This document shows positions 7,518 to 47,900 of a DNA stretch of 48,401 nucleotides, piece after piece. Under the pieces are notes generated by a model. It did not search any database. It had not been told where the DNA came from and saw only the letters and a program-made list of their open reading frames with translations. The DNA is from Gammaproteobacteria bacterium (GTDB taxonomy: Bacteria > Pseudomonadota > Gammaproteobacteria > SG8-11). The stretch lies in NCBI GenBank assembly GCA_024641505.1, contig JAHECY010000222.1, forward strand, positions 1 to 48,401, read 5' to 3'. The first letter of the stretch is position 1. The number at the start of each line of letters is the position of its first letter. Position numbers and translations under genes: made by a program.

Positions 7518-7546
7518 TTGACCAACTGGTGTTTTCCATTTATTAA
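7518..7546 (+). promoter_or_regulatory. Putative internal sigma-70 promoter
   Basis: TTGACC (7518-7523), a 17-base spacer, then TATTAA (7541-7546), in the 250-base gap before the GT2 gene at 7646. It is a good match to the consensus and spacing. In AT-rich DNA such matches also occur by chance, so the call is tentative. It could give the distal half of the cluster its own transcript. The rest of the gap shows no gene. Confidence 0.35.
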
Positions 7547-7645
7547 CCCATGACATAACCTAGCAACCTGCTCGAAGCAGATCCAATCATTGGATAATTT
7601 GCATTACTATTAATTCGTGGTAGTCAAAGAAAAAGTAGGTGAGTT

Positions 7646-8578
7646 GTGACTGATCTAGTTAGCGTTATTATCCCATCATATAATTGCTCGTCGACAATCA
7701 CACGTGCTATTGACAGCGTTCTAAGTCAGAAAAATGTAATCCTGGAAGTCATAGTAGTCGATGATGGTTCTACTGACGACACCATCGCCAAGCTAGAAAC
7801 ATACTCTAGCAGTATTACCGTAATCACCATTAAAAACTCTGGACCCGCTACGGCTAGAAATACCGGCATTACGGCATCGAATGGTAACTTCATTGCGTTT
7901 CTTGATGCTGACGATGAGTGGTTGCCTTACAAATTGTCAGAACAGTTAAAGATATTTCACGACTCACCAAACGTTGGAATGGTAAGTAGTGCCGCGGAGC
8001 AAATTGACGCGGACGGCAACATAGTTGTTTCTTGCGCAAGGCACCTGCAAGGGACGCTTAAAACATTGCTCTTTTATGAAAACCCCATCATAACAAGCTC
8101 CGTAATTCTTAGGGGAGAAATATTACGGGACTACGGCGCTAATTTTTGCGAAAAACTTAGACTAGCGGAAGATTGGCAGCTATGGATAAGACTTTCCGCA
8201 ATAACGGAAATCGTTGTCTTGCCTAGGATTTTTGTCCGTTATCATATTCACAGTTCAAATCTTACTAAGGAATTTAGCGCCGAGGAAGTATATGAATCAT
8301 ACATTGACATGTATGATTCCTTGCGTGATGATCCAATGTTAATGGACTACGCAATCGCCAATTGGAAGAAATTGCAAAACAACGCAATGTATCTGCTGAG
8401 TTACCACTACTTTGGCATTGGCAACTCATTTATCGCAAGAAATATTATGTTGAAGGCAATATTGTTGATGCCGTCTAATTTATTTCGTAAGTCAACGCTT
8501 TGGATTCTTTTGGGAATGCCGCGATTAAGAAACGCTTTAAAAAAACTACATAATGTCTACATCAGGCATCAACAATGA
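7646..8578 (+). CDS. Glycosyltransferase family 2
   Basis: A 310-residue GT-A enzyme with a GTG start preceded by a purine-rich AAAAGTAGGTGAG ribosome binding region. VSVIIPSYNCSSTITRAIDS is the first Rossmann-like strand, IVVDDGSTDDT the nucleotide-contacting acidic motif, NSGPATARNTGI the next conserved loop and AFLDADDEW the DxD metal site. LRLAEDWQLWIRL carries the ED motif that usually provides the catalytic base. All catalytic landmarks of GT2 are therefore present. The C-terminus is basic. Its stop overlaps the start of the polymerase gene in an ATGA arrangement, so the two are translationally coupled. It probably adds one sugar to the lipid-linked O-unit; specificity is unknown. Confidence 0.9.
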   Translation: MTDLVSVIIPSYNCSSTITRAIDSVLSQKNVILEVIVVDDGSTDDTIAKLETYSSSITVITIKNSGPATARNTGITASNGNFIAFLDADDEWLPYKLSEQLKIFHDSPNVGMVSSAAEQIDADGNIVVSCARHLQGTLKTLLFYENPIITSSVILRGEILRDYGANFCEKLRLAEDWQLWIRLSAITEIVVLPRIFVRYHIHSSNLTKEFSAEEVYESYIDMYDSLRDDPMLMDYAIANWKKLQNNAMYLLSYHYFGIGNSFIARNIMLKAILLMPSNLFRKSTLWILLGMPRLRNALKKLHNVYIRHQQ

Positions 8579-10083: not shown

Positions 10084-11195
10084 AATCAAAAATTCGTATA
10101 TATCATTTTTTGCTAGATTATAGAATCGGTGGCCCTCATATTTACTTAAACAGTCTCAATGAAGCTTTAAAACACCACTTTGAAATAACTGTGATAACGC
10201 CGGGAAGAGGAGAAAATACGGACATAAAGCTAATAAATCTTCGCGGTTTATCGAGATCACTTTATATAATCGAAATATTAGTAAACACAGCTTACATAAT
10301 CTATTTAGCTTTGTGGAAAAAATTGTTCCCTAAGGGCGATGCCATTTACGATATCCATGGAACTGCAAACCTTGCCCCCCTTTTAGCCTGTAGAATATTA
10401 AGATTACCCATGGTTTGGCACTTACATGAATCCGCACCTGATTACCGTGTATTTTACAGCATAGGAAGACTATTTTTGCGTCGAAATACGGATATTGTTG
10501 TTCCAGTATCGATCAAAACAGTTGAAGTATACGGTGTCGATAGATTTACGCTAGCGCCTTCTCCTGTCGACATTGGTTTTTGGGCTCCCTGCTTAGCTGC
10601 CACCAGTGAAAGCCAATATAGAGATGAAATTAGTATTGTATGCGTTGGGAACCTAAATGGATTGAAGGGACAAGACGTTCTATTAAATTCACTACAATCA
10701 GTTACTGGGAATTGGCGACTGTCCTTAATCGGTAGTGAATTGAGCACCTGGAAAAAATATTCGAACAAATTGCATAGGCTTGCGGAAAATATCAGGAAAA
10801 ATAGCGGTTCGCGGCTAGTAGAGTTTACGGGTTGGCTAGAAAAGGATGCAGTTCGAAATTATTTATCTACTTGTGATATTTTTATCCTGCCATCACGAAG
10901 TGAAGCTTGCCCAATCGCGCTGCTAGAAGCAATGGCGATGGAGTGCTTTTGCATAGCGACTGATGTAGGTAGTGTGTCACAAATCATCTGCAATCCACTG
11001 GCAGGGATAGTTATACCCACAGACGATGCAAGCGCGCTATCAGCGGCTATTAACTTCGCAATGTCACTATCCAAAGGAAGCCGTAAAGAATATGGGCGGT
11101 ACGCGAGAAAGGCAGTGGAAAGAGAATATTCATTGGATAAGGTTGCAAGACAACACTTTAGAATTTACGAGCAAGTATTAAGCAGAACAGTATAG
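10080..11195 (+). CDS. Glycosyltransferase family 4 (GT-B)
   Basis: A 371-residue GT-B enzyme. The start is ATG 10080, which overlaps the polymerase stop (ATGA); longer in-frame extensions lie inside the polymerase gene and are unlikely. The N-terminal domain begins KIRIYHFLLDYRIGGPHIYLNSL, a typical acceptor domain with a glycine loop. The donor domain shows ISIVCVGNLNGLKGQDVLL and the EX7E motif as SEACPIALLEAMAM, followed by IATDVGSVSQII and GIVIPTDDASAL. These residues bind the nucleotide sugar in retaining GT4 enzymes. The product is a cytoplasmic or peripheral membrane glycosyltransferase of the O-unit pathway. The linkage and donor cannot be told. Confidence 0.9.
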   Translation: MKSKIRIYHFLLDYRIGGPHIYLNSLNEALKHHFEITVITPGRGENTDIKLINLRGLSRSLYIIEILVNTAYIIYLALWKKLFPKGDAIYDIHGTANLAPLLACRILRLPMVWHLHESAPDYRVFYSIGRLFLRRNTDIVVPVSIKTVEVYGVDRFTLAPSPVDIGFWAPCLAATSESQYRDEISIVCVGNLNGLKGQDVLLNSLQSVTGNWRLSLIGSELSTWKKYSNKLHRLAENIRKNSGSRLVEFTGWLEKDAVRNYLSTCDIFILPSRSEACPIALLEAMAMECFCIATDVGSVSQIICNPLAGIVIPTDDASALSAAINFAMSLSKGSRKEYGRYARKAVEREYSLDKVARQHFRIYEQVLSRTV

Positions 11196-11198
11196 CAT

Positions 11199-12428
11199 AT
11201 GCCTTCCATAGTAATCGTTGAGCAATATTTTTACCCGGAAGGTTGGGGTGGCGCACAGTTGCCCAGAGATATCGCAGTTAAGTTGGCACGAGACAATTAC
11301 AGTGTGAAAGTACTTTGCGGATCTGATCAATACGTGACGGTTACCCCTGATGATGAGATAGAAGACCCCAGGCATGTGGGCGTTTCCATTCTAAAGATAC
11401 CGCGCATCGTCGGTGGCTCAGCGCATGCGTATAAAATAGTTAAACAGATATGGTTTCACATCGTTGCAACAGTTCTTCTTACATTTAATTTGCGGACGGA
11501 TATCTATTTGGCGTTCACTAACCCTCCGTTGATAGTCGTAATTGTCGCCATTGTGGCATCCTTATTTAATAAGCCATTCATAATCGTCGCCCAAGACATC
11601 TATCCAGAGATTCTTAATGCAGGTAAAAAACTTCATAGACGGAGCTTGTTTTATCAAATTCTTGATAAAGTCATTACCAAGGCCTATAGATGTGCTGCTA
11701 GTATTGTTGTCCTTGGCCCAGAAATGAAGATCAAACTCCAAGGGAAGGGAATTTCCCCTGATAGGATTTTTATTATTTCCAACTGGGCGACAGGAAACTT
11801 AAGGATCGTTAAACATGATCATCAACTTAAGAAAGAATGGAGGTTGAAAAATTGTTTTACACTGTTATATTCAGGTAACCTAGGACTTGGACATGAGTTT
11901 GGGACTATCTTTACCGCAATTAAGGAGCTGAAAGAGCAAGGTTATTCAATTCAGGTCGTAATTATCGGAAACGGCCGAAGATTGATAGAAGTTAAACAAT
12001 TAGCTAGTGAATACAAACTGGCGGATTTGTTGGTTACTAAACCATTTCAACGATCGAAGGATCTTCCTTATACCTTGGGGTTGGCGGATATGGCCTTAGT
12101 AACCATACAACCAGGATTTGAAGGACTCATAGTACCAAGCAAACTATTTGGCTATATGGCAAGAGGAATACCAACCCTTTATATTGGAAATAAAAGCGAT
12201 ATAAGCTATTATATCAACACCTCGAAGGGCGGTATTGAGTGTGTTAGCGGTGACACCGATTACTTGAAAGAATGTTTATTGAGGTTGATTGAAGATCCTC
12301 AGGTGCTGAATGCCATGGGAAATAATGCGAAAGAATATTATTTTAAACATCTCGCTAGTTCTCTTGCACTTAACAAATATATATCTTTAATTTCATCGGT
12401 CTTAGACGAGAGTTTATGTAAAAGATGA
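11199..12428 (+). CDS. WbuB-like glycosyltransferase family 4
   Basis: A 409-residue GT-B enzyme starting three bases after the previous stop. The N-terminus VEQYFYPEGWGGAQLPRDIA is the 'Y-P-E-GG/A' opening seen in WbuB/WcaI-type transferases. IIVAQDIYPEI and LLYSGNLGLGHEFGTI follow, then PGFEGLIVPSKLFGYMARGIP in place of the standard EX7E, a variation typical of this subgroup. WbuB of E. coli transfers an N-acetyl-fucosamine residue; whether this protein shares that donor is only a guess, though a WbpM/WbpV-type supply of deoxy-HexNAc in the same cluster is compatible. The C-terminus overlaps the start of the SDR gene (ATGA), so the operon continues. Confidence 0.87.
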   Translation: MPSIVIVEQYFYPEGWGGAQLPRDIAVKLARDNYSVKVLCGSDQYVTVTPDDEIEDPRHVGVSILKIPRIVGGSAHAYKIVKQIWFHIVATVLLTFNLRTDIYLAFTNPPLIVVIVAIVASLFNKPFIIVAQDIYPEILNAGKKLHRRSLFYQILDKVITKAYRCAASIVVLGPEMKIKLQGKGISPDRIFIISNWATGNLRIVKHDHQLKKEWRLKNCFTLLYSGNLGLGHEFGTIFTAIKELKEQGYSIQVVIIGNGRRLIEVKQLASEYKLADLLVTKPFQRSKDLPYTLGLADMALVTIQPGFEGLIVPSKLFGYMARGIPTLYIGNKSDISYYINTSKGGIECVSGDTDYLKECLLRLIEDPQVLNAMGNNAKEYYFKHLASSLALNKYISLISSVLDESLCKR

Positions 12429-13387
12429 GAGTATTAGTAACAGGGGGTTCCGGATTTGTTGGAACACATTTGATAGCAAAACTAATAGAGCGCAATTGGA
12501 ACATACGGTTAGCGGTACGGGTTGACGATGCAAACTTTCGGATCAAAGGTGAGTGTTGCGACTACATAGTCGTTGGAGACATAAATTCAGATACCCAGTG
12601 GGAAGCTAGTTTGCGAGATGTCGATGTTGTCGTCTATTTGGCAGGCTACGCACATATTTCAAATGACGAATTCTCAAAAATACGACAACGATGCATTGAT
12701 GTAAATACCACCGGGCCTGTTAACTTGGCACGTTCAGCTGCTAAAACAGGCGTAAAGCACTTTATTTACCTAAGCAGTATAGGAGTGGTTTGCCAATATT
12801 CCGAGTTTACCATAAACGAAAATACGCCCTGCAACCCTCATAATGTGTATGCTGAGAGCAAATGGCTGGCAGAGAACGAATTGAAGGGAATTGCTACAAC
12901 TTCTTCAATGGGTGTAACAATATTACGGCCACCATTAGTGTACGGTCCGGGCAATCCTGGGAACTTCAGGAGGCTGATTGATGTGGTATCCAAAGGTTAT
13001 CCACTGCCATTAGGTTCAATTACAAATCGCAGAAGCTTTCTCTATGTAAAAAATCTGGTCGACGTCATTTTAAAATGCATTGAAGCACCCGCAGATGATA
13101 GTGTCGTGTATCATGTCAGCGATGACCAATCCGTATCGACACCAGAACTCATTACCATATTGGCCCAAACAATGGGTAAGAAAGCCAAGCTATATAACGT
13201 ACCGGTTTCTATTCTCTCGGGAATTGCTTCAGTAACGCGACACAAAGATGATTTAATTCGTTTAAAACAATCATTAGAGCTGGATAATACGAAATTTAAA
13301 GAAAATATTGACTGGACACCGCCATATACTTTGCAGGAAGGAATAAAAGAAACGATAAACTGGTATTTAGTTCAGCATGGAAAATAA
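12425..13387 (+). CDS. WbpV-like NAD-dependent epimerase/dehydratase (UDP-HexNAc 4-reductase type)
   Basis: A 320-residue extended SDR. VTGGSGFVG gives the cofactor loop G7xxG10xxG13. YLSSIGVV supplies the serine and YAESKWLAE the Y142xxxK146 pair, so the active site is complete. LRPPLVYGPGNPGNF and RRSFLYVKNLVD are substrate-domain motifs. It resembles WbpV/WreQ-type enzymes that reduce the 4-keto group of the WbpM product to give UDP-QuiNAc or UDP-FucNAc. That is consistent with the WbpM-like gene 370 bases downstream and the WbpL-like initiator upstream. A 4-epimerase function is the main alternative. It is the last gene of the AT-rich block. Confidence 0.83.
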   Translation: MRVLVTGGSGFVGTHLIAKLIERNWNIRLAVRVDDANFRIKGECCDYIVVGDINSDTQWEASLRDVDVVVYLAGYAHISNDEFSKIRQRCIDVNTTGPVNLARSAAKTGVKHFIYLSSIGVVCQYSEFTINENTPCNPHNVYAESKWLAENELKGIATTSSMGVTILRPPLVYGPGNPGNFRRLIDVVSKGYPLPLGSITNRRSFLYVKNLVDVILKCIEAPADDSVVYHVSDDQSVSTPELITILAQTMGKKAKLYNVPVSILSGIASVTRHKDDLIRLKQSLELDNTKFKENIDWTPPYTLQEGIKETINWYLVQHGK

Positions 13388-13757
13388 TGTTTACTGTGAT
13401 CTTCTATTTTCCGCGAAATACTCCTTGAAGAATAAGTCGAAGGTAAAACTACCAATGCTATGTACACGACAACGACTCTTCATCAGAATTGCATAAATAT
13501 TGCCAGCAATTCCGCTGATCATACCGATACAACCTCATAAAACCATATTAAAAAAGCGTAATAATCTCGGCATATTACCTAATCTATGGGTCTTATCGGA
13601 CCTCACCAATCGTTCTAAACATATATCCAATTAATGCCTTAAATTACAATATTTCCTTTGCCCTATTTTAATTCACCAAAATTAGTGTTTGTGATTTTTC
13701 GAATGTAACGTAAAATCTAATGCAAATTTTTATATAAGCGGAACACTTCCCCCATTA
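13388..13757. other. AT-rich intergenic region at the edge of the polysaccharide block
   Basis: 370 bases without a credible coding sequence, markedly AT-rich, with stops in all frames. It marks the transition from the AT-rich glycosyltransferase block to the higher-GC wbpM-galU-cysM segment. The right end holds a plausible promoter (separate entry). I see no insertion sequence ends or direct repeats flanking it. Confidence 0.6.
13689..13716 (+). promoter_or_regulatory. Putative sigma-70 promoter of the wbpM-like gene
   Basis: TTGTGA (13689-13694), 16 bases, TAAAAT (13711-13716), ending 41 bases before the ATG of the dehydratase gene. The match to consensus is moderate. Its position after a 370-base gap makes an independent promoter for wbpM and vanZ reasonable. 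Confidence 0.4.
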
Positions 13758-34981: not shown

Positions 34982-37165
34982 TCATTTGGTTTTCATGGTG
35001 AAAACACCGTCCCAACTGCTGTCGGGTTGATGGTTCTGATAGGTCTGACAACGTTCAATCATAAGGGACTGAATCTTGTCACTGGGTAATTGTTGATAAC
35101 AGCCGATGGCGGCATCCCATTGTCGATGTAAATAGTGATCAAAGCCCTGTTCGGTCACTGACACCACGAGCATGGCACGAGCCAGCTCTTCATCGTCCAC
35201 CAGATCACCGATCAGCAGTGGTGCGTAGATGCGTATAGGATGATGTTTGCCTTTGACTCGCACCAGATCCACGATCCGGCAGGGTATTTCATCGCGGATG
35301 TATTCATAGGTATACTCGGTAAACAGAATGGGGCACCCGTACTGTTTGGTCAAACCCTCCAGGCGCGAAGCCAGGTTCACATTATCGCCGATTACCGTAT
35401 ACTGCAGTTTTTTATCGGACCCGATATTCCCCAACACCACTTCGCCGCTGTTCAAGCCGATACCGATTTCCAACGGTTGGTAGCCCACGGCTTCCAATGT
35501 GGCATTGACTTCGGGCAGTATTGTCATCATGCGAATTGCCGCGTTCACCGCGTCACGGGCATGTGCTTTGGTACGAATCGGTGCCCCCCAAAAGGCCATA
35601 ATGGCATCGCCAATAAACTTATCGACCGTGCCATTGTGCGCATAGATGGCATCCGTCATTTTGGAAAAATAAATATTGAGCATTTCCACGACACGCTCGC
35701 CGCTCATGGTTTCTGATATCGTGGTAAAACTTCGAATATCCGAGAACAATATTGTGAGGTTTTCGCGGGTACCCACTTCCGCCTGCAGAAAATCGCCGTA
35801 TTTGTCCACCACTTCCGCCAATATCACCGGCGACACATATTGGGAAAGCACTTTGCGAACTTTACGTTTGTCCTTGCCTTCGGTGAAGGTCAGGTACATG
35901 TAAGCGCTACTCCAGGCGAGCACGATGCCCAGGGAGGGTGTCACCATTTCCAGCACCAGATTGCTGCCAAACAACCCATAGGCACTCAAATTATAGGTAA
36001 TGAATACCGCCGCCGGAATGATAATGCGCAGACTCAAAGCCGTGGTGAGAATGGTGCTGAAACAGGTGATTAGTACAAATAAAACACTAAACAAGTAGGT
36101 GGCGCCGGAGCCGATTTCCTGCAGAAAATCACCGTCGATGAGATTGCCGGCGGCCGAGGCGTGAATAAATACGCCAGCCGCGGACGGTGACATTGGGGTC
36201 GCTTTCAAATCGTAGATGGCCGCGGCATTGGCACCAATGTAGATAATCTTATTTTCCAGATCACGGAATAACTCCATTACACTTTCCGCATCACCCGCAT
36301 CGAAACGTCGTTTCGCGGACATTAGCCAACTGTAGGAGTAGGTGTTGAACTTTCCGTAGGGATTAACCAGATAGGTGCCTTGCTCCGAAACCGGTACATG
36401 TTTACCACCGACAAGCAATTCCCCGGATTCGAAGTCAATACTGTCAACCCCCTGCGCGCGCAGCGCGCCCGCCAGTGACAGAGCAGGGTAGAAAGCCCCC
36501 TGGAAGCGGTGTACCAGGTGAACCCGACGATAAATACCATCCACATCCGATGCGGCGTAGACAACGCCAATGCCCGGGGATGCTGCGTAAAGTGGTGTGA
36601 TCGGTAACATGATTTTGTCATGTTCATGATGTTTCGGCAGTCCCGACACAGCCGCCGACGTCATTACATTGTGGGCGTCTCGATTCAGGGCAAATCGGTT
36701 GACGAAATCCTCTGGAACCTGAACGCTGTTATCAACATCAGGAAAAACGTCTTTATCAAAATGCACCGCATGAAAAACAAAATCCGTGGCACTCGTTTCA
36801 TCCACCAGGGCTTGATCCTGATCATTCAGCTTGCCATCCCGGTCAGGATACTGCTTCTCGGTGAACAACACATCGAAAAGCAAAGCCTTGGGATTCGCAT
36901 TGGCCAAGAATTGTATTAGATCCGCATGCACCGAGCGCGGCCATGGCCAGCGGCCGGCAATATCATTCATGTATTGCAGGGAAGGTTCATCTATCATCAC
37001 AATCACGATATTGTTCGGCGCAGGCTTCTGCGCATTGAAGCTGCGCATGCGCCAATCCAAGGTGAGCCATTCCAGTCTTTGCAGCGCTCCGGCAAAATGC
37101 AGGGCGCCAGTGGCGGCCACCACCAGAACTGACAGCAACAGACTGACCATCAGGTTTTGTTTCAC
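34982..37165 (-). CDS. CHASE2-domain class III adenylate/guanylate cyclase
   Basis: About 727 residues from a GTG at 37165 preceded by GGAG at six bases; a TTG at 37198 would add eleven. After one N-terminal helix comes a periplasmic CHASE2 sensor (about 30-330): RLEWLTLDWRMRSF, DEPSLQYMNDIAGRWPW, then GAGVFIHASAAGNL. Three helices follow (about 335-420), and then the cyclase domain: LFSDIRSFTTISE (first metal aspartate), VDKFIGDAIMAFWGAPI (second), and VIGDNVNLASRLEGL. The key acidic residues are intact, so it should make cAMP (or cGMP) in the cytoplasm in answer to an unknown periplasmic signal. It is the first gene of the minus-strand operon and lies divergent from the Wsp-like operon. Confidence 0.92.
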   Translation of the reverse strand: MKQNLMVSLLLSVLVVAATGALHFAGALQRLEWLTLDWRMRSFNAQKPAPNNIVIVMIDEPSLQYMNDIAGRWPWPRSVHADLIQFLANANPKALLFDVLFTEKQYPDRDGKLNDQDQALVDETSATDFVFHAVHFDKDVFPDVDNSVQVPEDFVNRFALNRDAHNVMTSAAVSGLPKHHEHDKIMLPITPLYAASPGIGVVYAASDVDGIYRRVHLVHRFQGAFYPALSLAGALRAQGVDSIDFESGELLVGGKHVPVSEQGTYLVNPYGKFNTYSYSWLMSAKRRFDAGDAESVMELFRDLENKIIYIGANAAAIYDLKATPMSPSAAGVFIHASAAGNLIDGDFLQEIGSGATYLFSVLFVLITCFSTILTTALSLRIIIPAAVFITYNLSAYGLFGSNLVLEMVTPSLGIVLAWSSAYMYLTFTEGKDKRKVRKVLSQYVSPVILAEVVDKYGDFLQAEVGTRENLTILFSDIRSFTTISETMSGERVVEMLNIYFSKMTDAIYAHNGTVDKFIGDAIMAFWGAPIRTKAHARDAVNAAIRMMTILPEVNATLEAVGYQPLEIGIGLNSGEVVLGNIGSDKKLQYTVIGDNVNLASRLEGLTKQYGCPILFTEYTYEYIRDEIPCRIVDLVRVKGKHHPIRIYAPLLIGDLVDDEELARAMLVVSVTEQGFDHYLHRQWDAAIGCYQQLPSDKIQSLMIERCQTYQNHQPDSSWDGVFTMKTK

Positions 37166-37546
37166 TGTGGACTCCAAGCGCGAAGTAGATATGTGCAAGA
37201 AATATCGAGTGCGCAGGGAGGAACTTTAAATTACAGTAGACAGCCGCGTCTGGAGATTTGGAAATCGGTAGTTCGCGACAGTCGCGCACGTCCTTAAATT
37301 GTGGCTGGAGAACAGATACACTGGCTGTAAATCGCGCAGGCGGAACGCACACTTATTATTAAAAATAGTCCGCAACTTATTGTTTTATTTAACCATTTAC
37401 ATGTGACGCCGGTGCCGGGTCAAGCTGCGACTGCGGGTCGCCCACACTTATTCTATTATAATCATGCAGTTATACTTGAAATCTTATAATATGGTCTAGA
37501 CCAAACATATTCGTCTGGAAAGGTTTGTTTACGAGGATCGCTATCG
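37166..37546. other. Divergent intergenic region between cyclase and Wsp-like operons
   Basis: 381 bases with no credible gene. The right part is AT-rich and holds a TATAAT (37485-37490) and a perfect 12-bp palindrome (37492-37503), listed separately. Promoters for both operons should lie here. A clear -35 element is not visible. Confidence 0.55.
37485..37503 (+). promoter_or_regulatory. Candidate -10 box with adjacent 12-bp palindrome (operator?)
   Basis: TATAAT at 37485-37490 is followed one base later by TGGTCTAGACCA (37492-37503), a perfect 12-bp palindrome that would straddle the transcription start, 44 bases before the MCP ATG. No good -35 is seen, which suggests activator dependence. 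The site could bind a repressor or activator dimer. Confidence 0.4.
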
Positions 37547-39532
37547 ATGGAGTCTCCACAATCCAGCATGTTTAAATGGACGCTGCGCACCAAGGTCAAC
37601 TTGGTGGTGGGCATTAATCTTCTGCTGGTGCTTCTATTCGTCACCACCTATACCGTGCAACGGGAAACCAACCGTCTGCTGGAGCTGACGGAAACACAGA
37701 CCAAAGACTTGACCACCTTCTACTTCGACAGTCTCAACACCATGATGCTGACCGGCACCATGGACAAACGTAATATTCTCCGTAACAAGACTCTCGCCCG
37801 GCCCGAAGTAATCGAAGCGCGCGTCATTCGGGGCCAGCCTGTCATTCAACAATTCGGTCCGGGGTGGCCGGAAGAAGTCCCCCTTGACGATATGGATTCC
37901 CGAGCGCTTAAAGGCGAAAGCATTTCCCTGATCGAAACCCGGGGCGGCAAGCGGGTGTGGACCGCCATCACCCCTTTCAGGGCAACGGAAGAAACGCGTG
38001 GTGTGAACTGCCTCAATTGCCACAAGGTACCTTCTGGCAGTATCAATGGCGCCATCCGCATCAGCCTGAGTCTCGATAATGTAGACGCGGCCGTAAAAAA
38101 GGAAATGTGGACCACGATTTGGGCGAACTTTGGCATGTTCGCCGTCGGCCTGTTAATTGTTAACTTGTTGCTGCAGTATTGGTTTATCACTCCCTTGACG
38201 GGCTTGCTGGAAGTCATACGCAAACGCGGTGAGGGAGACATTCATATCCGCGCCCACGTCAAGAATCGGGATGAAATCGGAGACCTGGCCGCGGTCTTTA
38301 ATACCATGGCCGACAATGTCAATTTCACCACTGAACGCGAGCACAATGCCAATGAAGAACTTGCCCGCAAGGTACAAATTCTTCTGGATGTCATCAGCAA
38401 GGTAACGGAGGGGCATTACGATGTGCAGGTTGGATTTCACAGCTCCGATGCGATCGGTGAGCTGGCGGAAAATCTGCAGATTATGATTTCCTATATTAAA
38501 AATTCCATCGAGGAAAAAAAGGACGCGATGGAAATGTTACGCAAGAAAGTATCGCGCATTCTGCACGTCGTGGAACAGGCTACCAATGGCGACTTGACCG
38601 GCGAGATCAAGCTGACGGGTTCCGATGCAATTGGTCTACTGGCGGAAGGTGTTCAGGACATGATCACCAGCCTCAACACTTTGGTATCACAGGTGCAAAA
38701 ATCCGGTATTCAAGTGGCATCGTCAGCCACTGAAATCGCAGCTACCGCCAAACAGCAGGAGGCCACTATTTCCGAACAGGCGGCGACCACCAGCGAAATT
38801 GCCGTCACCGCCACGGAAATTTCCGCAACCGCCAAAGAACTGGAAAAAACCATGGATCAGGTGGCAGGCGTCGCTGAATCCACCACGGGTATTGCCGAGG
38901 AGGGCCAGGCAAGTCTCGCCAGAATGCAGACGACCATGAAACAGGTCGTCGACGCCGCCAGTGCCATTGCCAATAAACTTGAAGTTCTCAATGAAAAAGC
39001 CGCTAATATCGGTACTGTCGTCGACACTATCAATCGGGTGGCGGATCAAACGAACTTGTTGTCGCTCAATGCGGCTATCGAAGCCGAAAAAGCCGGTGAA
39101 TATGGCTATGGTTTTTCCGTGGTTGCCAAGGAAATACGTCGACTGGCGGACCAAACGGCAGTGGCGACACTGGACATCGAACAAATAGTCCGTGAAATGC
39201 AGAGCGCAGTATCCGCTGGCGTTATGAGCATGGAGAAATTTTCCGAACAGGTGCGTCATAGCGTGGAGAATGTAAATCAGGCAAGCGGGCAGCTTGGCAA
39301 GATCATCAATGGCGTACAGACCTTGACACCGCGGTTCGAAAGCGTTCACCAGAGCATGCATTTCCAGACCCAAGGCGCCCTGCAAATCAATAATGCGATG
39401 AATTCACTCAATGAATCCGCACACCAAACCGTCGAATCCCTGCAACAGTCCAATGCGGCTATCGACCATCTGAATGACGCAGCGCATAATTTGCAGCATG
39501 CGGTATCCATATTCAAAGTACGCAGGGATTGA
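37547..39532 (+). CDS. WspA-like methyl-accepting protein with a periplasmic heme c motif
   Basis: A 661-residue transducer with an ACGAGGA ribosome site. Helix 1 is about 16-36, the periplasmic sensor about 37-187, and helix 2 about 190-213. The sensor ends with GVNCLNCHK: C155-x-x-C158-H159, a c-type heme attachment site. The region looks like a DUF3365/Tll0287-type heme sensor. A HAMP domain follows (214-267), then two further HAMP-like modules (about 275-330 and 335-390), then a long methylation/signalling coiled coil. The tip (about 498-537), QTNLLSLNAAIEAEKAGEYG and AKEIRRLADQTAVATLDIEQ, matches WspA-class receptors. It heads a six-gene operon; by homology it controls CheA-REC and thus c-di-GMP synthesis. 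Confidence 0.92.
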   Translation: MESPQSSMFKWTLRTKVNLVVGINLLLVLLFVTTYTVQRETNRLLELTETQTKDLTTFYFDSLNTMMLTGTMDKRNILRNKTLARPEVIEARVIRGQPVIQQFGPGWPEEVPLDDMDSRALKGESISLIETRGGKRVWTAITPFRATEETRGVNCLNCHKVPSGSINGAIRISLSLDNVDAAVKKEMWTTIWANFGMFAVGLLIVNLLLQYWFITPLTGLLEVIRKRGEGDIHIRAHVKNRDEIGDLAAVFNTMADNVNFTTEREHNANEELARKVQILLDVISKVTEGHYDVQVGFHSSDAIGELAENLQIMISYIKNSIEEKKDAMEMLRKKVSRILHVVEQATNGDLTGEIKLTGSDAIGLLAEGVQDMITSLNTLVSQVQKSGIQVASSATEIAATAKQQEATISEQAATTSEIAVTATEISATAKELEKTMDQVAGVAESTTGIAEEGQASLARMQTTMKQVVDAASAIANKLEVLNEKAANIGTVVDTINRVADQTNLLSLNAAIEAEKAGEYGYGFSVVAKEIRRLADQTAVATLDIEQIVREMQSAVSAGVMSMEKFSEQVRHSVENVNQASGQLGKIINGVQTLTPRFESVHQSMHFQTQGALQINNAMNSLNESAHQTVESLQQSNAAIDHLNDAAHNLQHAVSIFKVRRD

Positions 39533-39573
39533 AGCCATAACATGAATCGCCTGGTGTCTATAGAGAGTAAACC

Positions 39574-40875
39574 GTGATGCAGAAAGATGCATGGCAGAAG
39601 ATTCAACAAACGCTGCAAAACGCCATCGGTTTGAATGTCAATGCGGTCGGGAAATCAAATCTCGATCGTGCGGTACATTTTCGCATGAAGCTGCTCAAAT
39701 TGCCCTCGATTGACGCATATGATAAATTTCTGCATACCTCCGCCGCGGAATTGACGGAACTGGTCGAGGAGGTCGTGGTACCGGAAACCTGGTTCTTCCG
39801 CAACCATGAATCATTTAGCGCCCTGTCGAGCATACTGCGCCCGCAATGGTTTGATTTTACCGCCCAGCATCCATTACGCATACTCAGCGTTCCGTGTTCC
39901 ACAGGCGAGGAACCCTACTCAATCGCCATGACACTTCACGATCTAGGGTTGCATCCCAGCGGTTATCATATTGACGCTGTCGATATCAGCGAACGTGCAT
40001 TAGCAAAGGCACGTGAAGGTTGCTATAACAAACACTCCTTTCGTCATAACGAAGGCGGCTTTCGTGAGCGATTTTTTACTGAGAGCGGTGACAACTACCT
40101 TATCAACGCCAAATTACGCCAATCCATAGATTTTCTGCAGGACAATCTGCTGGCGGCTAATTTCGGCTTGTTACGCGGTCATTATCATATTATTTTTTGC
40201 CGAAATCTGCTTATTTACTTCGATCGTGAAACTCAAACCAGGTCAGTGAATAAACTTTGCAACTTATTGCTATCGGATGGCACCCTGTTTCTCGGACATG
40301 CTGAAACCGGCGATTATGTTGGTACCACGCTGAAACGCCTGAAATATGCGCGGGCATTCGCTTATCAACCACGTACCGCCACGCAACCCGCACGGCAGCC
40401 TGCCACCCCAGCGGAAGCTGGCGTTATAAACAAGATGCCACCTTTGCCAATGCCAGCTGATCTTCAGCCAGCGTCGGTGATACCGCCAAATGATTCTGCA
40501 CCATCAATAACGCCGACCCCAGTTGCGGATCTACACATACCTGAGCAGGATTCGCCCGAACTTTCCCAAATCGCCCAGTGCGCTAACGAGGGCAATCTTA
40601 TCCAGGCGGAATTCATGTGCAATGATTACCTGTATCAACATGATACTCATGCACAGGCGTATTATCTGCTGGCTTTGATCTATCAAGCACAGGGGCGTCT
40701 TGAACTGGTCGAGGGTCTATATAGAAAAACGGTTTACCTTGATCCGGATCACTATGAAGCCCTGATTCATCTGGCGGAACACGCGGAGCGTCACAATGAC
40801 AAACATGTGGCCTCACAGTTGCGGGCGCGCTCCAGCCGGGTGCTGGCACGCCGCCGCAAGCAACGTCAAGGATAG
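39574..40875 (+). CDS. CheR-type chemoreceptor methyltransferase with TPR (WspC-like)
   Basis: A 433-residue protein. The CheR all-alpha N-terminal domain is followed by the SAM-binding domain: VPETWFFRNHESF, SVPCSTGEEPYSIAM (from V106), DAVDISERALAKAREGCY and IIFCRNLLIYFDRETQ. A proline-rich linker (about 265-320) leads to a C-terminal TPR region (about 342-425: ALIYQAQGRLELVEGLYRK, YLDPDHYEALIHLAEHA). CheR plus C-terminal TPRs is the WspC layout. It should methylate glutamates of the MCP coiled coil and counter the CheB-type esterase. It is followed by the CheW-type gene after 3 bases. No pentapeptide is seen at the MCP C-terminus, which is usual for WspA. Confidence 0.93.
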   Translation: MMQKDAWQKIQQTLQNAIGLNVNAVGKSNLDRAVHFRMKLLKLPSIDAYDKFLHTSAAELTELVEEVVVPETWFFRNHESFSALSSILRPQWFDFTAQHPLRILSVPCSTGEEPYSIAMTLHDLGLHPSGYHIDAVDISERALAKAREGCYNKHSFRHNEGGFRERFFTESGDNYLINAKLRQSIDFLQDNLLAANFGLLRGHYHIIFCRNLLIYFDRETQTRSVNKLCNLLLSDGTLFLGHAETGDYVGTTLKRLKYARAFAYQPRTATQPARQPATPAEAGVINKMPPLPMPADLQPASVIPPNDSAPSITPTPVADLHIPEQDSPELSQIAQCANEGNLIQAEFMCNDYLYQHDTHAQAYYLLALIYQAQGRLELVEGLYRKTVYLDPDHYEALIHLAEHAERHNDKHVASQLRARSSRVLARRRKQRQG

Positions 40876-40878
40876 TCG

Positions 40879-41562
40879 ATGCCGGATCAGAAGATAGTCA
40901 GTTGCTGGAACAGTATCGGTGTGTGGGGACGGGTACAGCCGCGCTGTGCATTATTGAAAGACATCATTCATTGCCGGAATTGTGAAAAATTCGTGGAAGC
41001 GGGCAGGGAGGTACTGAGTAAGCTACCAGCCCACAACCTCCACACCGATTGGACGACACAAATTGCCGAAGCCAAGGAGCGCCGAAACACCGAGCAAAAT
41101 TCGTTGCTAGTGTTCCGCATCGGCGCTTCATGGTTTGGGCTCAGTTGCGCAGTTCTTGACGAAGTCTGCGCACAACGCAGGATTCGCAGCATACCGAATG
41201 TGGATTCGCTCGTAGTCAAAGGACTGGTTAACATTTCCGGCAAGGTACAATTATGTTTTTCTCTCGGCCAATTATTCAAGATCGAAAAGTACACCGGTAC
41301 CCGGGAGCGGCGTAAAAGCCTCTACGACTCACTTATCGTCGCGGTTTGGAATGGCAGGAAATACGTATTTCCGGTCAACGAAATTCTTGGCATCTACAGC
41401 TATGGCAACCATGCGCTTACCCCGCTCGAGTCGCCCAAGGAAAACCCCGAAGCACGGTTTTTTTCCGGAAAACTTTTGATCGACACCTATACCATACATT
41501 TTCTTGACGCGGGCAGCGTATTCAGCGAATTTGACAGGGACATGAGTCACCATGCCGGATAG
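40879..41562 (+). CDS. CheW-type adaptor with N-terminal four-cysteine motif (WspD-like)
   Basis: A 227-residue adaptor. The first 40 residues contain C9-W-N-S-I-G-V, C23 and H31-C32-R-N-C35; the CWN.IG and HCRNC elements are typical of WspD-type CheW proteins, and the four cysteines could bind a metal or Fe-S centre. Residues 74-220 form a CheW domain (LLVFRIGASWFGLSCAVLDEV, IPNVDSLVVKGLVNISGKVQL, and later FLDAGSVF). It should couple the MCP to the CheA-type kinase. The operon has only this one CheW, while classic Wsp operons have two (WspB and WspD). Its end overlaps the kinase start by 11 bases. Confidence 0.9.
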   Translation: MPDQKIVSCWNSIGVWGRVQPRCALLKDIIHCRNCEKFVEAGREVLSKLPAHNLHTDWTTQIAEAKERRNTEQNSLLVFRIGASWFGLSCAVLDEVCAQRRIRSIPNVDSLVVKGLVNISGKVQLCFSLGQLFKIEKYTGTRERRKSLYDSLIVAVWNGRKYVFPVNEILGIYSYGNHALTPLESPKENPEARFFSGKLLIDTYTIHFLDAGSVFSEFDRDMSHHAG

Positions 41563-43831
41563 CCGCCGTTCCACAATAGACGCCACCATGCTGGATCTAT
41601 TCCATGCCGAGCTGGAACAGCAGTCTTCGGCCCTGGTGTCCGGCATGCTGGAGCTGGAACACAGCAGCACTGACGCATCAATTATCAATAACATGATGCG
41701 GGCCGCACATTCATTGAAAGGTGCCGCGCGGTTACTAAAAGTCGAAAGCGTGGAAAAAATCGCACATATCATGGAAGACATATTTATATCCGCCCAAACC
41801 AACAAATTACAACTCTCAGCCGCGCATATCGATGTACTGTTGGCCGCGGTGGACACGATTAAACATATCGGCGCGGGTGGCGCGGATACCTTGCTCAACT
41901 GGCATACCCGACATGAAGAAAGCTATAAATCGGTACTTGGGGATTTGACAGCGATCGGCTCGCATCCCGAGAAATCTCGACGCCACCGGGGAACCACTTC
42001 CGAAAAGAAAAAGTCAACCCTTGCCGCCGGCAATCATGCTGCTGAAGTCGACGGTGTCCCGCAGCCGCCCGTTAACGACAGACCGGATATCGTACGAATT
42101 TCCAATACCAAAATCGAAGCCATGGTAGGAAAATCCAGTGAACTTCTGGTGCAGCATCGATGGCTGAACAGTTTCGTGACGGAAATGATTCAGCTGAAAA
42201 AACGGTTCGGCGAAGTGAATAATCTCATCGAGACATTACGTGAAAATATCGGCGCCGGAGTAACCACTGAGCAGCAAATAGCCGGTGATCTAAAGTCGCT
42301 CAGTAAACGACTGCGTGACAACAATCAGCGTCTCAACCAAAGCATCAGCAGTGTTTACGAATTTTATCACCGCACTGATTCCTTGATCGAAGATATCAAT
42401 CGTGACATTCTCACCACCCGGATGCGGCCTTTCGCCGAACGACTGACGCAGTTTCCGCGCATGGTCAGAGACATCAGTCGTGGCTTGGATAAAACCGTAA
42501 CCTTGAGCATCGACGGCGGCAATACCGAGGTCGACCGCGATGTACTGGACAAGATAGAAGCACCGCTCACGCACCTGGTACGCAACGCCATCGCGCATGG
42601 CGTGGAACAGCCGGAGCAACGAAAGAAACTTGGGAAAAAACCCGATGCGACGATCACCATATCCGCCAGCTATCGCGCGGGCATGCTGCACATCAGTATT
42701 GCGGACGACGGCGCCGGCATCGACCTGCCGGCGATTAAACGTAAGATTCTTGAAAAAAAACTGGTACCGCGGCAAGTCGTAGATAGTTTGACGGACGAAG
42801 AGTTGATGGCATTCATGTTTCTGCCAGAATTTTCCACAAAAGAGCAAGTCACCGAGATTTCCGGTCGAGGCTTCGGTCTCGACGTCGTAAAGGAAACGGT
42901 AACGGCATTGAAGGGTACGGTCCGGGTCGACAGTGTTCCCGGACGCGGTACCTGTTTTGAACTACAGATGCCGGTAACCGTTTCAGTAGTTACCGCGTTA
43001 ATCGTGGAGATCGTCGCTGAACCGTATGCATTTCCCCTGGCACGCGTAGAAAGAGTTATGAAATTGCAGCAAAGTGACATTTTCTACAGTGATGGCAAAC
43101 AATATTTTACGTTTGACGAGACGCGCTTAAATCTTGTCTCCGCCGGGCAACTGCTGGGGTACACCGAATCCAGCAGCCATGCGGACACGTTGTCGGTGGT
43201 GGTCATTAAGGACTATCTCAACCACTATGCTTTAGTTGTTGATAAAGTGATGGGTCAGAAGGAACTGGTGATGCAACCGCTGGACAGCCGGCTTGGCAAA
43301 ATACCCGAGCTTTCCGCCTGCGCGATCCTGGAAAATGGCATACCCGTATTGATTCTTGATGTCGACGATTTAACCCGATCTCTCGATTTCATGATCAAAG
43401 GCGGGAAGGTAAAACACGTACCGCTTGATCTGACACCTGCCACCATCATCAAACGCATACTGGTGGTCGACGATTCCATAACGGTACGGGAGATTGAACG
43501 CAACTTGCTCGAGACTCACGGCTATCATGTCGAAACTGCGGTCGACGGCATTGATGGCTGGAATGCCATTCGCAGCAATGAATATAATTTACTTATAACT
43601 GATATTGATATGCCCCGCATGGATGGCTTCGAATTGGTCAGTCTGATCAAATCTGATAGCAGATTGAAGCGCTTACCCGTTATGATCGTGTCTTATAAGG
43701 ATCGGATCGAAGACCGGCGCAAAGGCCTGAATCTCGGTGCCGATTACTATCTGACAAAAGGCAGCTTTCATGACGAAACCCTCATTGAGGCGGTTAAGGA
43801 TTTGATTGGAGAGAGTGACGCGACACTATGA
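41552..43831 (+). CDS. CheA-type hybrid histidine kinase with receiver (WspE-like)
   Basis: A 759-residue kinase. The HPt domain (about 8-110) has the phosphorylated H53 in MRAAHSLKGAARLL. After a variable linker come the dimerisation region and the HATPase domain (LTHLVRNAIAHGVEQPEQR, the N box; ISIADDGAGIDL; SGRGFGLDVVKETV), a CheW-like domain (about 480-615), and a C-terminal receiver with ILVVDDSITVREIE and D684 in ITDIDMPRMDG. This HPt-kinase-CheW-REC order is that of WspE, with REC at the C-terminus and D684 as the acceptor that serves as a phosphate sink or relay. Kinase and receiver residues are intact. It overlaps both neighbours. Confidence 0.95.
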   Translation: MPDSRRSTIDATMLDLFHAELEQQSSALVSGMLELEHSSTDASIINNMMRAAHSLKGAARLLKVESVEKIAHIMEDIFISAQTNKLQLSAAHIDVLLAAVDTIKHIGAGGADTLLNWHTRHEESYKSVLGDLTAIGSHPEKSRRHRGTTSEKKKSTLAAGNHAAEVDGVPQPPVNDRPDIVRISNTKIEAMVGKSSELLVQHRWLNSFVTEMIQLKKRFGEVNNLIETLRENIGAGVTTEQQIAGDLKSLSKRLRDNNQRLNQSISSVYEFYHRTDSLIEDINRDILTTRMRPFAERLTQFPRMVRDISRGLDKTVTLSIDGGNTEVDRDVLDKIEAPLTHLVRNAIAHGVEQPEQRKKLGKKPDATITISASYRAGMLHISIADDGAGIDLPAIKRKILEKKLVPRQVVDSLTDEELMAFMFLPEFSTKEQVTEISGRGFGLDVVKETVTALKGTVRVDSVPGRGTCFELQMPVTVSVVTALIVEIVAEPYAFPLARVERVMKLQQSDIFYSDGKQYFTFDETRLNLVSAGQLLGYTESSSHADTLSVVVIKDYLNHYALVVDKVMGQKELVMQPLDSRLGKIPELSACAILENGIPVLILDVDDLTRSLDFMIKGGKVKHVPLDLTPATIIKRILVVDDSITVREIERNLLETHGYHVETAVDGIDGWNAIRSNEYNLLITDIDMPRMDGFELVSLIKSDSRLKRLPVMIVSYKDRIEDRRKGLNLGADYYLTKGSFHDETLIEAVKDLIGESDATL

Positions 43832-44859
43832 AAATCGGTATCGTCAATGACCTTCCCTTGGTACTTGAAGCCTTGCGGCAGACCATAACCCGCAACAACG
43901 ATCATCAGGTCCTGTGGGTGGCCCGGGACGGGGCTCAAGCGGTACGTATGTGCCGTGATCAAACGCCTGATTTGATCCTCATGGATTTACTGATGCCGGT
44001 CATGGACGGTGTCCAGGCTACACGGGAAATCATGGCCTACACACCCTGTCCCATATTAGTCGTCACTTCTTCGATTGAGGTCAACGCATCCCTGGTATTT
44101 GAAGCCATGGGGGCGGGCGCCCTGGATGCCATCAACACACCGATGGTCGACGGCCCTTTATTTGGCAACGGGCGCGAAGATCTGCTCCGAAAAATCTCCT
44201 TGATTGGCCATCTCACCCGTAAAACCACATTGGCGACAGGGCCGACAACCATCATTCCCGGCCCCCCCCGGCCGCATGATCAAACCCTGATCGCCGTTGG
44301 TGCATCATCGGGAGGTCCACACGCCTTAGCCGAGATGCTTGGCGGTTTGCCAGGTGATTTTCCCGCACCCTTGGTTATCGTGCAGCATGTGGACCGGAAG
44401 TTCGTGAGCGAACTGGCAAAATGGCTAAGTACCATGACGCCCTTACCCATCAGCCTTGCGCAACACGGCATGCCGCCACGTCCTGGCAATGTCTATATTG
44501 CATGTTCCAATGATCATTTGGCTATGAATGCTAACAACACTTTCACCTATACCAAAGAACCAAGGGATTTGGTATACCGCCCATCCGTCGACGTATTTTT
44601 CAATAGCATTGTCCAGCACTGGCAAGGCCACGCAATAGGCATACTTTTGACCGGCATGGGCAATGATGGTGCGCAGGGCTTACTGCGCATGAAGCAGCAT
44701 GGCTGGTATACCATTACGCAGGACAGGCAATCCAGCGCTGTTTTCGGTATGCCCAAAGCGGCGGCGGAACTCAATGCTGCTTCGGAAATATTGCCGTTGT
44801 CAGTACTGGGACGGCGTTTGACCCAGCTACTACAAAAAAACAGGGTGGCTGTCCGATGA
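43828..44859 (+). CDS. CheB-type methylesterase with receiver (WspF-like)
   Basis: A 343-residue protein. The receiver has D53 in LILMDLLMPVMDG and is followed by a linker and the CheB esterase domain: GASSGGPHALAEM (catalytic serine), VIVQHVDRKF (histidine) and LLTGMGNDGAQGLLRM (aspartate). It removes methyl groups from the MCP and, in Pseudomonas, loss of WspF locks the pathway on and raises c-di-GMP. The linker contains a C8 run (44262-44269), a possible slippage site. Overlaps both neighbouring genes by four bases. Confidence 0.95.
   Translation: MKIGIVNDLPLVLEALRQTITRNNDHQVLWVARDGAQAVRMCRDQTPDLILMDLLMPVMDGVQATREIMAYTPCPILVVTSSIEVNASLVFEAMGAGALDAINTPMVDGPLFGNGREDLLRKISLIGHLTRKTTLATGPTTIIPGPPRPHDQTLIAVGASSGGPHALAEMLGGLPGDFPAPLVIVQHVDRKFVSELAKWLSTMTPLPISLAQHGMPPRPGNVYIACSNDHLAMNANNTFTYTKEPRDLVYRPSVDVFFNSIVQHWQGHAIGILLTGMGNDGAQGLLRMKQHGWYTITQDRQSSAVFGMPKAAAELNAASEILPLSVLGRRLTQLLQKNRVAVR
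44262..44269 (+). repeat. C8 homopolymer in the cheB linker
   Basis: Eight C within GG-C8-GG, coding for the proline-rich linker between receiver and esterase domains. A one-base slip would cut off the esterase domain. Confidence 0.6.
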
Positions 44860-45929
44860 CCCGCGACAAGACCGATCAACATACTGTGATGTCGGATATA
44901 TATGTCGTGTTGCTGGTGGACGATCAACCCATCATAGGGGAAGCCATCCGGCGTATGTTGGTTCATGAATCCGACATCCAGTTTCACTATTGCCAGAGCT
45001 CCGATCAGGCACTAAGCATGGCACAGGATGTCCAGCCCACGGTGATTCTCCAGGATCTTGTGATGCCGAGCATCGACGGTATGACTTTGTTAAGCCACTA
45101 TCGTAATAATCCGCTGATCTGCGATGTCCCGGTTATCGTGTTGTCGACCAAGGATGATCCATCGGACAAAAGCAACGCATTTGCCGCCGGTGCCAGCGAC
45201 TATCTGGTTAAAATTCCAGACCAGATCGAACTCATTGCGCGCATCAAGGCGCATTCCCGCAGCTACCTGAGTCAAAAGCAACGTGACGAACTGCTTGAAG
45301 AACTGAAAATTGTTCATGCTGAACTGGAGCAAAGCCATCGGGAACTGCAAAAACTTTCATGCATGGACGGATTGACCGGCATCGCCAATCGTCGCCATTT
45401 CGATACCTACTTTTCCCAGGAATGGTTGCGCGCCTTGCGTGAAAAGATCCCGACCTCGCTGATTCTTGCGGACATTGATTTCTTCAAGTACTACAATGAC
45501 AACTATGGGCACCAGGCTGGTGATGAATGTCTGCGGATTATCGCTCAGGCACTTGCGGATGTTCTGCAACGTCCCGGGGATCTTGCCGCGCGCTATGGCG
45601 GTGAGGAGTTCGTGGTGATACTGCCTTATACGGATGAAAAAGGCGCTATCAAGATTGCGTCACAATTGCATGACGCGGTAACTAAACTGGCGATCTCGCA
45701 TGAATTTTCCCCGGTATGCGGGTACGTCACCATCAGTCTCGGTATCGCCACCATGAAGCCCGACAATAAATCTTCACCTTCCGATCTTGTGCAAATTGCT
45801 GATGCCGCGCTGTACAAAGCCAAAGAACAGGGACGCGACCGCTTTGTTGCAGCAGACCCCAACATGCGACCGTTACCGCCAAAACCCAAAGCCAAAGCTA
45901 AAACCAAAGCCAGCAATAGAGAAAAATAG
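44856..45929 (+). CDS. Receiver-GGDEF diguanylate cyclase (WspR-like)
   Basis: A 357-residue response regulator. ATG 44856 overlaps the cheB stop; ATG 44889 is an alternative that starts nearer the receiver. The receiver has D67 in VILQDLVMPSIDG. A helical linker (ELEQSHRELQKLS) leads to the GGDEF domain: LTGIANRRHFD, IDFFKYYNDNYGHQAGD, then R239-PG-D242 (inhibitory I-site RxxD) and G248-G-E-E-F. Both the active and the product-inhibition sites are intact, as in WspR. The phosphorylated form would synthesise c-di-GMP and favour biofilm formation. The C-terminus has a low-complexity PKPKAKAKTKA tail. It is the last gene of the operon. Confidence 0.96.
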   Translation: MTRDKTDQHTVMSDIYVVLLVDDQPIIGEAIRRMLVHESDIQFHYCQSSDQALSMAQDVQPTVILQDLVMPSIDGMTLLSHYRNNPLICDVPVIVLSTKDDPSDKSNAFAAGASDYLVKIPDQIELIARIKAHSRSYLSQKQRDELLEELKIVHAELEQSHRELQKLSCMDGLTGIANRRHFDTYFSQEWLRALREKIPTSLILADIDFFKYYNDNYGHQAGDECLRIIAQALADVLQRPGDLAARYGGEEFVVILPYTDEKGAIKIASQLHDAVTKLAISHEFSPVCGYVTISLGIATMKPDNKSSPSDLVQIADAALYKAKEQGRDRFVAADPNMRPLPPKPKAKAKTKASNREK

Positions 45930-46292: not shown

Positions 46293-47900
46293 TTGAGAAC
46301 CACTTCGCGCCTGGCGCCGTACATTTTTCTATCGCTACTTCTAAGCTCTTGTGGCGATGCCATACAAGAAGTCAGTCAAAACCGGGATGTGGATTACAAA
46401 CCCGGTACGACGCCTGATAACATCTCCACTCGGGAAGACACACCTGTCAATTTCCCAAACCCCGTGCTCAACGACGATTCAACTGATACCATGATATTGA
46501 CATTGAAGGATTTCACCATTCCGGAGCATGGCACGCTCACTCGGGAAGGGGACGGATCCTTTACCTATCTCCCCGCAGCCAACTATTTTGGCACGGACAT
46601 TTTTTATTACATTGCCACCGACGGCGTCCATGCCAGTGACCAGACTCTGGTCACCATCGACATCACGCCTGAAAGCGACGCACCGGTCATTACTTCCGAC
46701 CCGGAAACCGCGGCCACCCAGGATCAGGAATACGTCTACCAGATCATCGTTACCGACCCCGATCCTGAAGAACATTTTACCTACTCATTGAATACCGGTG
46801 ATCGCATACCTCAGGGGTTGCAAATCGATGACAATGGCAGAATGAATTGGACTCCCGGTGCCACGGATATCGGCGCCTACCAAATATCGGTAAAGGTGGT
46901 CGACAGCAATCAGTTAGCCGGCATCCAAAACTACACATTAACGGTTTTTGACACCAAAGGCCCGCCGATTGTGGCACGAAACACGACTTTGGATGCCACA
47001 GAAGGGGCGGAAACGCCTGTAACTCGAAGCACATTGGAGTCTGCAGGTATCGACTTGGCATCCGCTAATCACAGTTATCAGCTGCGCAACCCACCCGGAC
47101 ATGGCAGGCTGCTTATTGGCACCGCGGATGGCGATGTGTCAGCCGAAATTGGCAGCACTTTTTCGCAGACGGATATTGATTACAAGGTGGTTCGTTATCA
47201 GAACAATGGAGACAATGCAGAAAGCGACGCCTTCTATATTGATATCATGGACGATAGCAGCGTCGCCATCACAATTCGTGTTTCCATTGTAATCACCCTT
47301 GTGAACGACACACCAATCGTGGTCAATAATGACAAACTTAATGTGTTAGAGGCCGGAGAAGCAATTGTTACCACCGATACCTTGCAAGTTTCAGACGAAG
47401 AAAGTGGGCCATACGAAATCAGGTTGCGCGTAAATTCCTTGCCCGCCCATGGCTTGTTACGGCTAATTAATCCCGATAAGAAACTTATCACCCTAGCGGT
47501 GGGGAACTTGGTTACGCAGGGTGATATCGACAACGGTGATGTGTCCTATAAGCATGATGGCAGCGAGACCACTGACGACAGCTTTCAACTGCAAGCCACA
47601 GACCTACAAGGTGCTTCAACACAGCCATTCGATGCACTGATCTCAATTACACCGGTCAATGATGTTCCAGTGGCCGGTTCCGATAACCTTATCACACCTC
47701 GCAACACGGCAATCACCTATGATGTACTAGCCAATGATAGCGACGCGGAAAATAATCAACTGGCTATAGTCTCACACACCCAGGGTATCAAAGGCATCGT
47801 GACCGTCAATACTGACAATACCATCACTTATACACCAGATAAAACGCCAGTGGTGTGGATAGTTTCACCTACACCGTGGACGACGGGCAGGGTGGAGTGA
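46293..47900 (+). CDS. Lipoprotein with tandem cadherin/Ig-like repeats (5' fragment of a frameshifted gene)
   Basis: A TTG start, eleven bases after an ATAGGAG site, opens a lipoprotein signal ending in LLSSCGD with C20. Residue +2 is glycine, so the outer membrane is likely. The rest, to about residue 515, is a string of beta-sandwich modules of the cadherin/VCBS/Ig type: EDTPVNFPNPVLNDDS, GSFTYLPAANYFGTDIFYYIATDG, then LLVNDTP-like joints (TLVNDTPIVVNND, ITPVNDVPVAGSDN). The last module runs into a different frame: after about 47850 the sense SGVDSFTYTVDDGQGGVSKPG continues in the frame starting at 47858, so the stop at 47898-47900 is not the natural end. Function is probably adhesion or surface binding. 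Confidence 0.75.
   Translation: MRTTSRLAPYIFLSLLLSSCGDAIQEVSQNRDVDYKPGTTPDNISTREDTPVNFPNPVLNDDSTDTMILTLKDFTIPEHGTLTREGDGSFTYLPAANYFGTDIFYYIATDGVHASDQTLVTIDITPESDAPVITSDPETAATQDQEYVYQIIVTDPDPEEHFTYSLNTGDRIPQGLQIDDNGRMNWTPGATDIGAYQISVKVVDSNQLAGIQNYTLTVFDTKGPPIVARNTTLDATEGAETPVTRSTLESAGIDLASANHSYQLRNPPGHGRLLIGTADGDVSAEIGSTFSQTDIDYKVVRYQNNGDNAESDAFYIDIMDDSSVAITIRVSIVITLVNDTPIVVNNDKLNVLEAGEAIVTTDTLQVSDEESGPYEIRLRVNSLPAHGLLRLINPDKKLITLAVGNLVTQGDIDNGDVSYKHDGSETTDDSFQLQATDLQGASTQPFDALISITPVNDVPVAGSDNLITPRNTAITYDVLANDSDAENNQLAIVSHTQGIKGIVTVNTDNTITYTPDKTPVVWIVSPTPWTTGRVE

Follow-up and report, generated by a model that had tools for sequence, protein, structure and literature searches.

A Wsp-type chemosensory operon with a predicted periplasmic heme c receptor in a gammaproteobacterium

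The Wsp chemosensory system, known for converting surface contact into the biofilm signal cyclic di-GMP (c-di-GMP), is the textbook example of a path from such contact to biofilm. What this system perceives if its receptor WspA carries a candidate heme c site in place of the familiar four-helix sensor is the question raised by an operon at positions 37547-45929 (plus strand) of contig JAHECY010000222.1 from a Gammaproteobacteria bacterium, whose 48,401 nucleotides were analysed as a whole and are here referred to as the window. Even for the canonical receptor, a 2022 review (PMC8846402) describes the actual stimulus as a mystery. We find the operon best explained as a Wsp system whose WspA receptor senses via a covalently bound periplasmic heme c, a reading that we hold to be likely.

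The operon comprises six co-directional genes whose domains were confirmed by Pfam. They encode a WspA-type methyl-accepting chemotaxis protein (MCP) of 661 residues (37547-39532), a WspC-like CheR methyltransferase with C-terminal TPR (39574-40875), a WspD-like CheW (40879-41562), a WspE-like CheA kinase consisting of Hpt (H53), HATPase and CheW domains followed by a C-terminal REC (D684; 41552-43831), a WspF-like CheB with REC (D53) and methylesterase domains (43828-44859) and the diguanylate cyclase WspR, which contains a REC domain (D67), the motif GGEEF at residues 248-252 and the I-site RxxD at residues 239-242 (44856-45929). The genes overlap at three of the five junctions, with gaps of 41 base pairs (bp) between receptor and cheR and 3 bp between cheR and cheW. 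Coordinates and domains bear out the arrangement of six genes in Wsp order that the original prediction, made from the sequence alone, had proposed, and the key residues named in it (H53 and D684 of CheA, D53 of CheB, 248-252 and R239/D242 of the GGDEF protein, C155/C158/H159 of the receptor) are all located where they were expected.

The relationship to Wsp is reflected in kinase, receptor and cyclase. In a CheA tree, the window kinase is placed inside the Wsp (WspE) clade, from which the remaining CheAs of its genome are excluded (support 100/99). A tree of receptor tips separates the window protein, together with canonical WspA, from ordinary MCPs (100/100), its tip being up to 73% identical to those of other heme receptors. 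The cyclase matches WspR of P. aeruginosa (3BRE, E 3.9e-106) and is co-linear with it over 345 residues. Membership of the Wsp family, including the WspA-like tip and an output via c-di-GMP, is thus borne out, and as judged from these comparisons the locus is a genuine Wsp-type chemosensory operon. It has the gene order, CheR-TPR, CheA-REC, CheB, WspR, WspA-like tip and WspD cysteine motif in common with the wspABCDEFR operon of Pseudomonas and betaproteobacteria, from which it differs in its heme c sCache domain instead of a four-helix bundle, its three HAMP units and the absence of wspB. Of the syntenic order A-B-C-D-E-F-R, the window holds A, C, D, E, F and R without B, which is found in its congener and at least 45 relatives, and it is therefore, given this lineage-specific loss, a variant of Wsp and not the full canonical operon. 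The cysteine motif at the N-terminus of WspD (CW...C..L....HC.NC; 40879-40990) is contained in the general form CW-x(6-14)-C-x2-L-x(4-6)-x-C-x2-C in 77 of 77 sequences (49 from heme-receptor, 7 from canonical and 21 from other Wsp systems) and possibly constitutes a metal or Fe-S site.

The distinct property of the operon resides in its receptor, in which hydropathy analysis locates two transmembrane (TM) helices at about residues 17-36 and 190-215. The intervening sensor domain (residues 37-187; 37655-38107) would consequently place its attachment motif for heme c, the sequence CLNCH at residues 155-159 with H159 as predicted proximal ligand (38009-38023), in the periplasm. This CXXCH motif is kept in 63 of 63 aligned sensors of the family, which argues against its occurrence by chance and rules out the possibility that it is absent from orthologues. 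Other invariant positions include M72, R95, D114 and Met67 (63/63; codon at 37745-37747), the last of which, in an alignment to 3B47, faces Met60, the residue that serves as distal heme ligand in the Geobacter MCP sensor GSU0582, with numbering obtained from chain residue 26 and an offset of 34 derived from His143. The assignment of the sensor required family alignments, since a plain Pfam scan of the single protein yielded nothing for DUF3365, and a single-sequence search of the PDB gave a weak match to 3B42. The family profile, in turn, matches the heme c sensor of GSU0582 (3B47; E 0.0028) along the entire domain, and among family members PF21563 (Mcp40H-20_sensor) reaches a best E-value of 3e-5. 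In case of PF11845 (Tll0287), 12 of 31 relatives score below E 1 (best 1.2e-3), with one orthologue at 21.4 bits compared to a cut-off of 24.1. When aligned by hhalign to 30 DUF3365 domains, the sensor family obtained 95% (E 3.5e-8) with the CXXCH motifs superimposed. The original prediction had pointed to DUF3365/Tll0287 as the family to compare, which holds as homology at the level of profiles but not as a Pfam match at cut-off, the branch of GSU0582 and GSU0935 being nearer. An AlphaFold (AF2) model of residues 28-197 shows a single-Cache fold at high confidence (predicted local distance difference test score 93.4), whose top match in the PDB is 3B42 (GSU0935, E 8e-6), with Cache domains of WalK next in rank. 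Genes for heme c maturation are present in the genome.

Taken from profiles, fold model and motif conservation, the sensor is predicted to be a heme c sCache domain, in line with the proposal that such a domain replaces the four-helix sensor of WspA. It shares the Cache/PAS-like fold, CXXCH, distal Met position and fusion to an MCP with GSU0582 and GSU0935 (PF21563; 3B47/3B42), which, in contrast to the window protein, reside outside any Wsp operon and whose Pfam cut-off it does not reach. The relationship to sCache_heme (DUF3365/Tll0287, PF11845), of which one signalling member binds NO (nitric oxide), is confined to sub-threshold matches. The sensor is connected via TM2 to three tandem HAMP units (about residues 208-262, 270-330 and 333-385; 38168-38701), for which Pfam, applied to pieces of the receptor, detects HAMP at 212-258 and two further repeats between about 270 and 385 below threshold (E 0.0027 and 0.00043), whereas hhalign with alignments of 63 receptors gave 97.5, 97.3 and 99.5% for the units. 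The two additional repeats had gone unnoticed in the original prediction. The WspA-like tip follows.

Receptors of this kind are not confined to the window. In a sample of 274 genomes of the class, the sensor was found in 41 and a WspE-like kinase (E<=1e-120) in 47, about half of which (24/47) contain a heme receptor as assigned by cross-comparing sensor, kinase and locus lists. Among 80 stretches retained out of 280 matching ones in a collection of named genomes, 45 encode a heme receptor with WspB, CheR, CheA, CheB and cyclase downstream, while five (L146, L170, L172, L177, L181) show a reduced arrangement of heme receptor, CheA and cyclase, with WspD in most, and apparently function without methylation-based adaptation since CheR and CheB are missing alongside WspB. 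Ten further loci, with WspA-type receptors, lie on truncated contigs, and twelve are ordinary chemoreceptors bearing the same sensor, as in Stutzerimonas. Among the locus titles are Ectothiorhodospiraceae, Chromatiales, Sedimenticola and Gallionella; some others read Deltaproteobacteria or Desulfuromonadales, labels of metagenome-assembled genomes that should be treated with care. Wsp operons of other genomes in the class have non-heme receptors, which, labelled by eye from their sequences, carry Cache-like domains (L236-L238, L245), long helical domains (L240, L246, L249, L253, L254) or almost no periplasmic domain (L256). In one case, two WspA-type receptors precede a single Wsp operon in tandem (L253:3-3584), and Wsp CheAs of several loci, L048 and L051 among them, contain two or three tandem Hpt domains.

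These features suggest a mechanism in which the heme iron would be held by His159 and Met67, and where oxidation or the binding of NO would displace the methionine. The resulting change would reach the receptor tip via TM2 and the three HAMP units and there alter autophosphorylation of CheA and, consequently, phosphorylation of WspR and synthesis of c-di-GMP, while CheR-TPR and CheB would reset the receptor. With wspB gone, coupling of receptor and kinase in the window species would fall to WspD alone. Such a scheme is consistent with the behaviour of characterised relatives. In the Geobacter sensors, Met60 is an exchangeable distal ligand that is lost on oxidation, the spin state also switches with oxidation state, and both proteins bind NO and CO (carbon monoxide; PMC8396549). 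Tight binding of NO, with no stable O2 complex, is described for a signalling protein of the sCache_heme family (PMC12889525). The properties of these relatives, together with the presence of cNorB and a cbb3 oxidase and the lack of NirS in the genome of the window, lead us to favour redox or NO, which probably control c-di-GMP output in heme-receptor Wsp systems. Of the redox, oxygen and NO inputs originally envisaged, redox or NO thus appear likely, whereas binding of oxygen, to judge from the relative in PMC12889525, is less so, and oxygen would act mainly by oxidising the heme. Denitrification was considered as obvious source of NO and rejected in the absence of NirS from the genome, despite the presence of cNorB. 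The same genome also encodes a paralogous heme c sensor (CLACH) fused to a domain recognised by eye as HD-GYP-type (L008:685-2145, contig C136), and for this reason one cue may govern c-di-GMP in both directions, its synthesis as well as its breakdown.

The sensor might instead respond to redox or oxygen only, with NO being physiologically irrelevant, comparable to the Geobacter redox model or to DcrA of Desulfovibrio, a periplasmic heme c MCP that we liken to the receptor by description and not by sequence comparison. To our knowledge, DcrA is not part of a c-di-GMP operon. It is described as sensing oxygen or redox (Fu 1994, cited in PMC3460858). The midpoint potentials of GSU0582 and GSU0935 of -156 and -251 mV and their redox-linked methionine switching (PMC8396549) would suit this reading, as would the lack of NirS, but cNorB is encoded in the genome and the Geobacter and tested signalling sCache_heme proteins both bind NO tightly, and the reading appears somewhat improbable. 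Several points weigh against heme-based sensing. We know of no purified protein of this exact sensor family, so that heme loading, ligation and signal are predictions. The window receptor alone has no match to a heme sensor at the curated cut-off in a Pfam scan, and in P. aeruginosa the response to surfaces is retained by WspA chimeras whose ligand-binding domain is foreign (PMC8846402). In light of these sensor swaps, the heme domain may tune rather than drive the response, and surface sensing may persist. The system could accordingly still be a sensor of surface contact as in Pseudomonas, its stimulus acting on transmembrane or cytoplasmic parts and its heme domain serving as extra modulator or structural cofactor, and the wide variation of sensor types in gammaproteobacterial Wsp operons, down to the near absence of a periplasmic domain in L256, fits with this view. 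However, the invariance of C155, C158, H159, M67, M72, R95 and D114 is far above that of a dispensable domain, and the presence of the sensor family on HD-GYP proteins and ordinary chemoreceptors points to a cue that is diffusible or redox in nature. We regard the surface-contact reading as unlikely.

A further concern relates to the window copy itself, which could signal poorly since loss of WspB lowers phosphorylation of WspR in P. aeruginosa (PMC8552884). In most relatives, receptor and cheR are separated by a gene for a WspB-like CheW of 138-184 residues. A wspB encoding 146 residues is kept in the congener (G003, locus L235), whereas the equivalent site in the window (39533-39573) is the 41-bp junction. 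An ortholog is not found elsewhere in the assembly (best E 0.025), which makes WspD the sole CheW of the operon and led us to reject a relocation of wspB. Hence the window genome, as far as its assembly reveals, has lost wspB, either recently or in appearance through an assembly fault. The earlier proposal that one CheW takes the place of two was not sustained as a property of the system, since 45 of the 80 homologous loci and the congener have WspB, and we likewise dismissed it as an alternative Wsp design. A published survey (PMC8552884) reports no operon of this type that lacks WspB or WspD. The same evidence of a vacant junction, a congener with wspB and no ortholog in the assembly would be expected if the operon were decaying or non-signalling after the loss, or if the loss were an assembly error. 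Against this, the six remaining genes are open with key residues intact, the end of the MCP and the start of CheR are both preserved around the 41-bp spacer, and five relatives make do with a smaller operon that lacks WspB, CheR and CheB. We thus consider this explanation very unlikely and retain heme-based sensing by a Wsp system as the preferred reading.

Trees of kinase and receptor tip bear on the ancestry of the sensor. The CheA tree rejects heme monophyly (approximately unbiased test, p 0.003) and places heme lineages at its base, where a heme root is cheapest with two instead of four sensor changes. In contrast, the heme receptors form one clade in the receptor-tip tree (100/96). We therefore do not claim heme as the ancestral sensor, also because the basal heme kinases are located on long branches next to distant outgroups, which likely cause the conflict between both trees. 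That a periplasmic heme system coupling redox or NO to c-di-GMP is the original, or at least a widespread, form of Wsp, with the surface-sensing four-helix WspA as one of several receptor replacements, is doubtful.

Comparable systems exist in other bacteria. Geobacter EsnABCD resembles the window operon in its class 40H MCP, CheW, CheA and diguanylate cyclase and is needed on electrodes, but its genes are scattered and EsnA has a cytoplasmic GAF domain and no periplasmic sensor (PMC5585712). Chemosensory cluster 2 of Halomonas similarly combines a 40H receptor, CheA-REC, CheR-TPR and a cyclase, yet with a different gene order, an extra CheY and an Hpt-REC-REC-GGDEF protein (PMC5907407). A description of a heme-bearing WspA was not found in the literature searched, where subscription papers were largely absent, and Wsp goes unmentioned in the main text of the sCache_heme preprint. 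Pseudomonas has been called the only gammaproteobacterial carrier of Wsp (PMC8552884), a range already broadened by a paper on Zetaproteobacteria (PMC5513912) and one on Lysobacter (PMC9758175), and which the heme-receptor operons widen within Gammaproteobacteria. The predicted heme-WspA would link respiration or NO to c-di-GMP via a whole chemosensory array. Being natural, widespread and equipped with a defined cofactor that spectroscopy can read, it would also allow the stimulus of a WspA receptor to be controlled and quantified.

The operon is flanked by a divergent, adjoining gene of a CHASE2-adenylate/guanylate cyclase (34982-37198, minus strand) and, downstream of the cyclase, by a lipoprotein-like protein with cadherin/Ig repeats (46293-47900, plus strand), which is a possible adhesin target of c-di-GMP. 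At about 2000-13400, the window contains a block of low GC content (0.39-0.41 compared to about 0.52) with glycosyltransferase, flippase-like and epimerase genes, which is probably an acquired polysaccharide locus.
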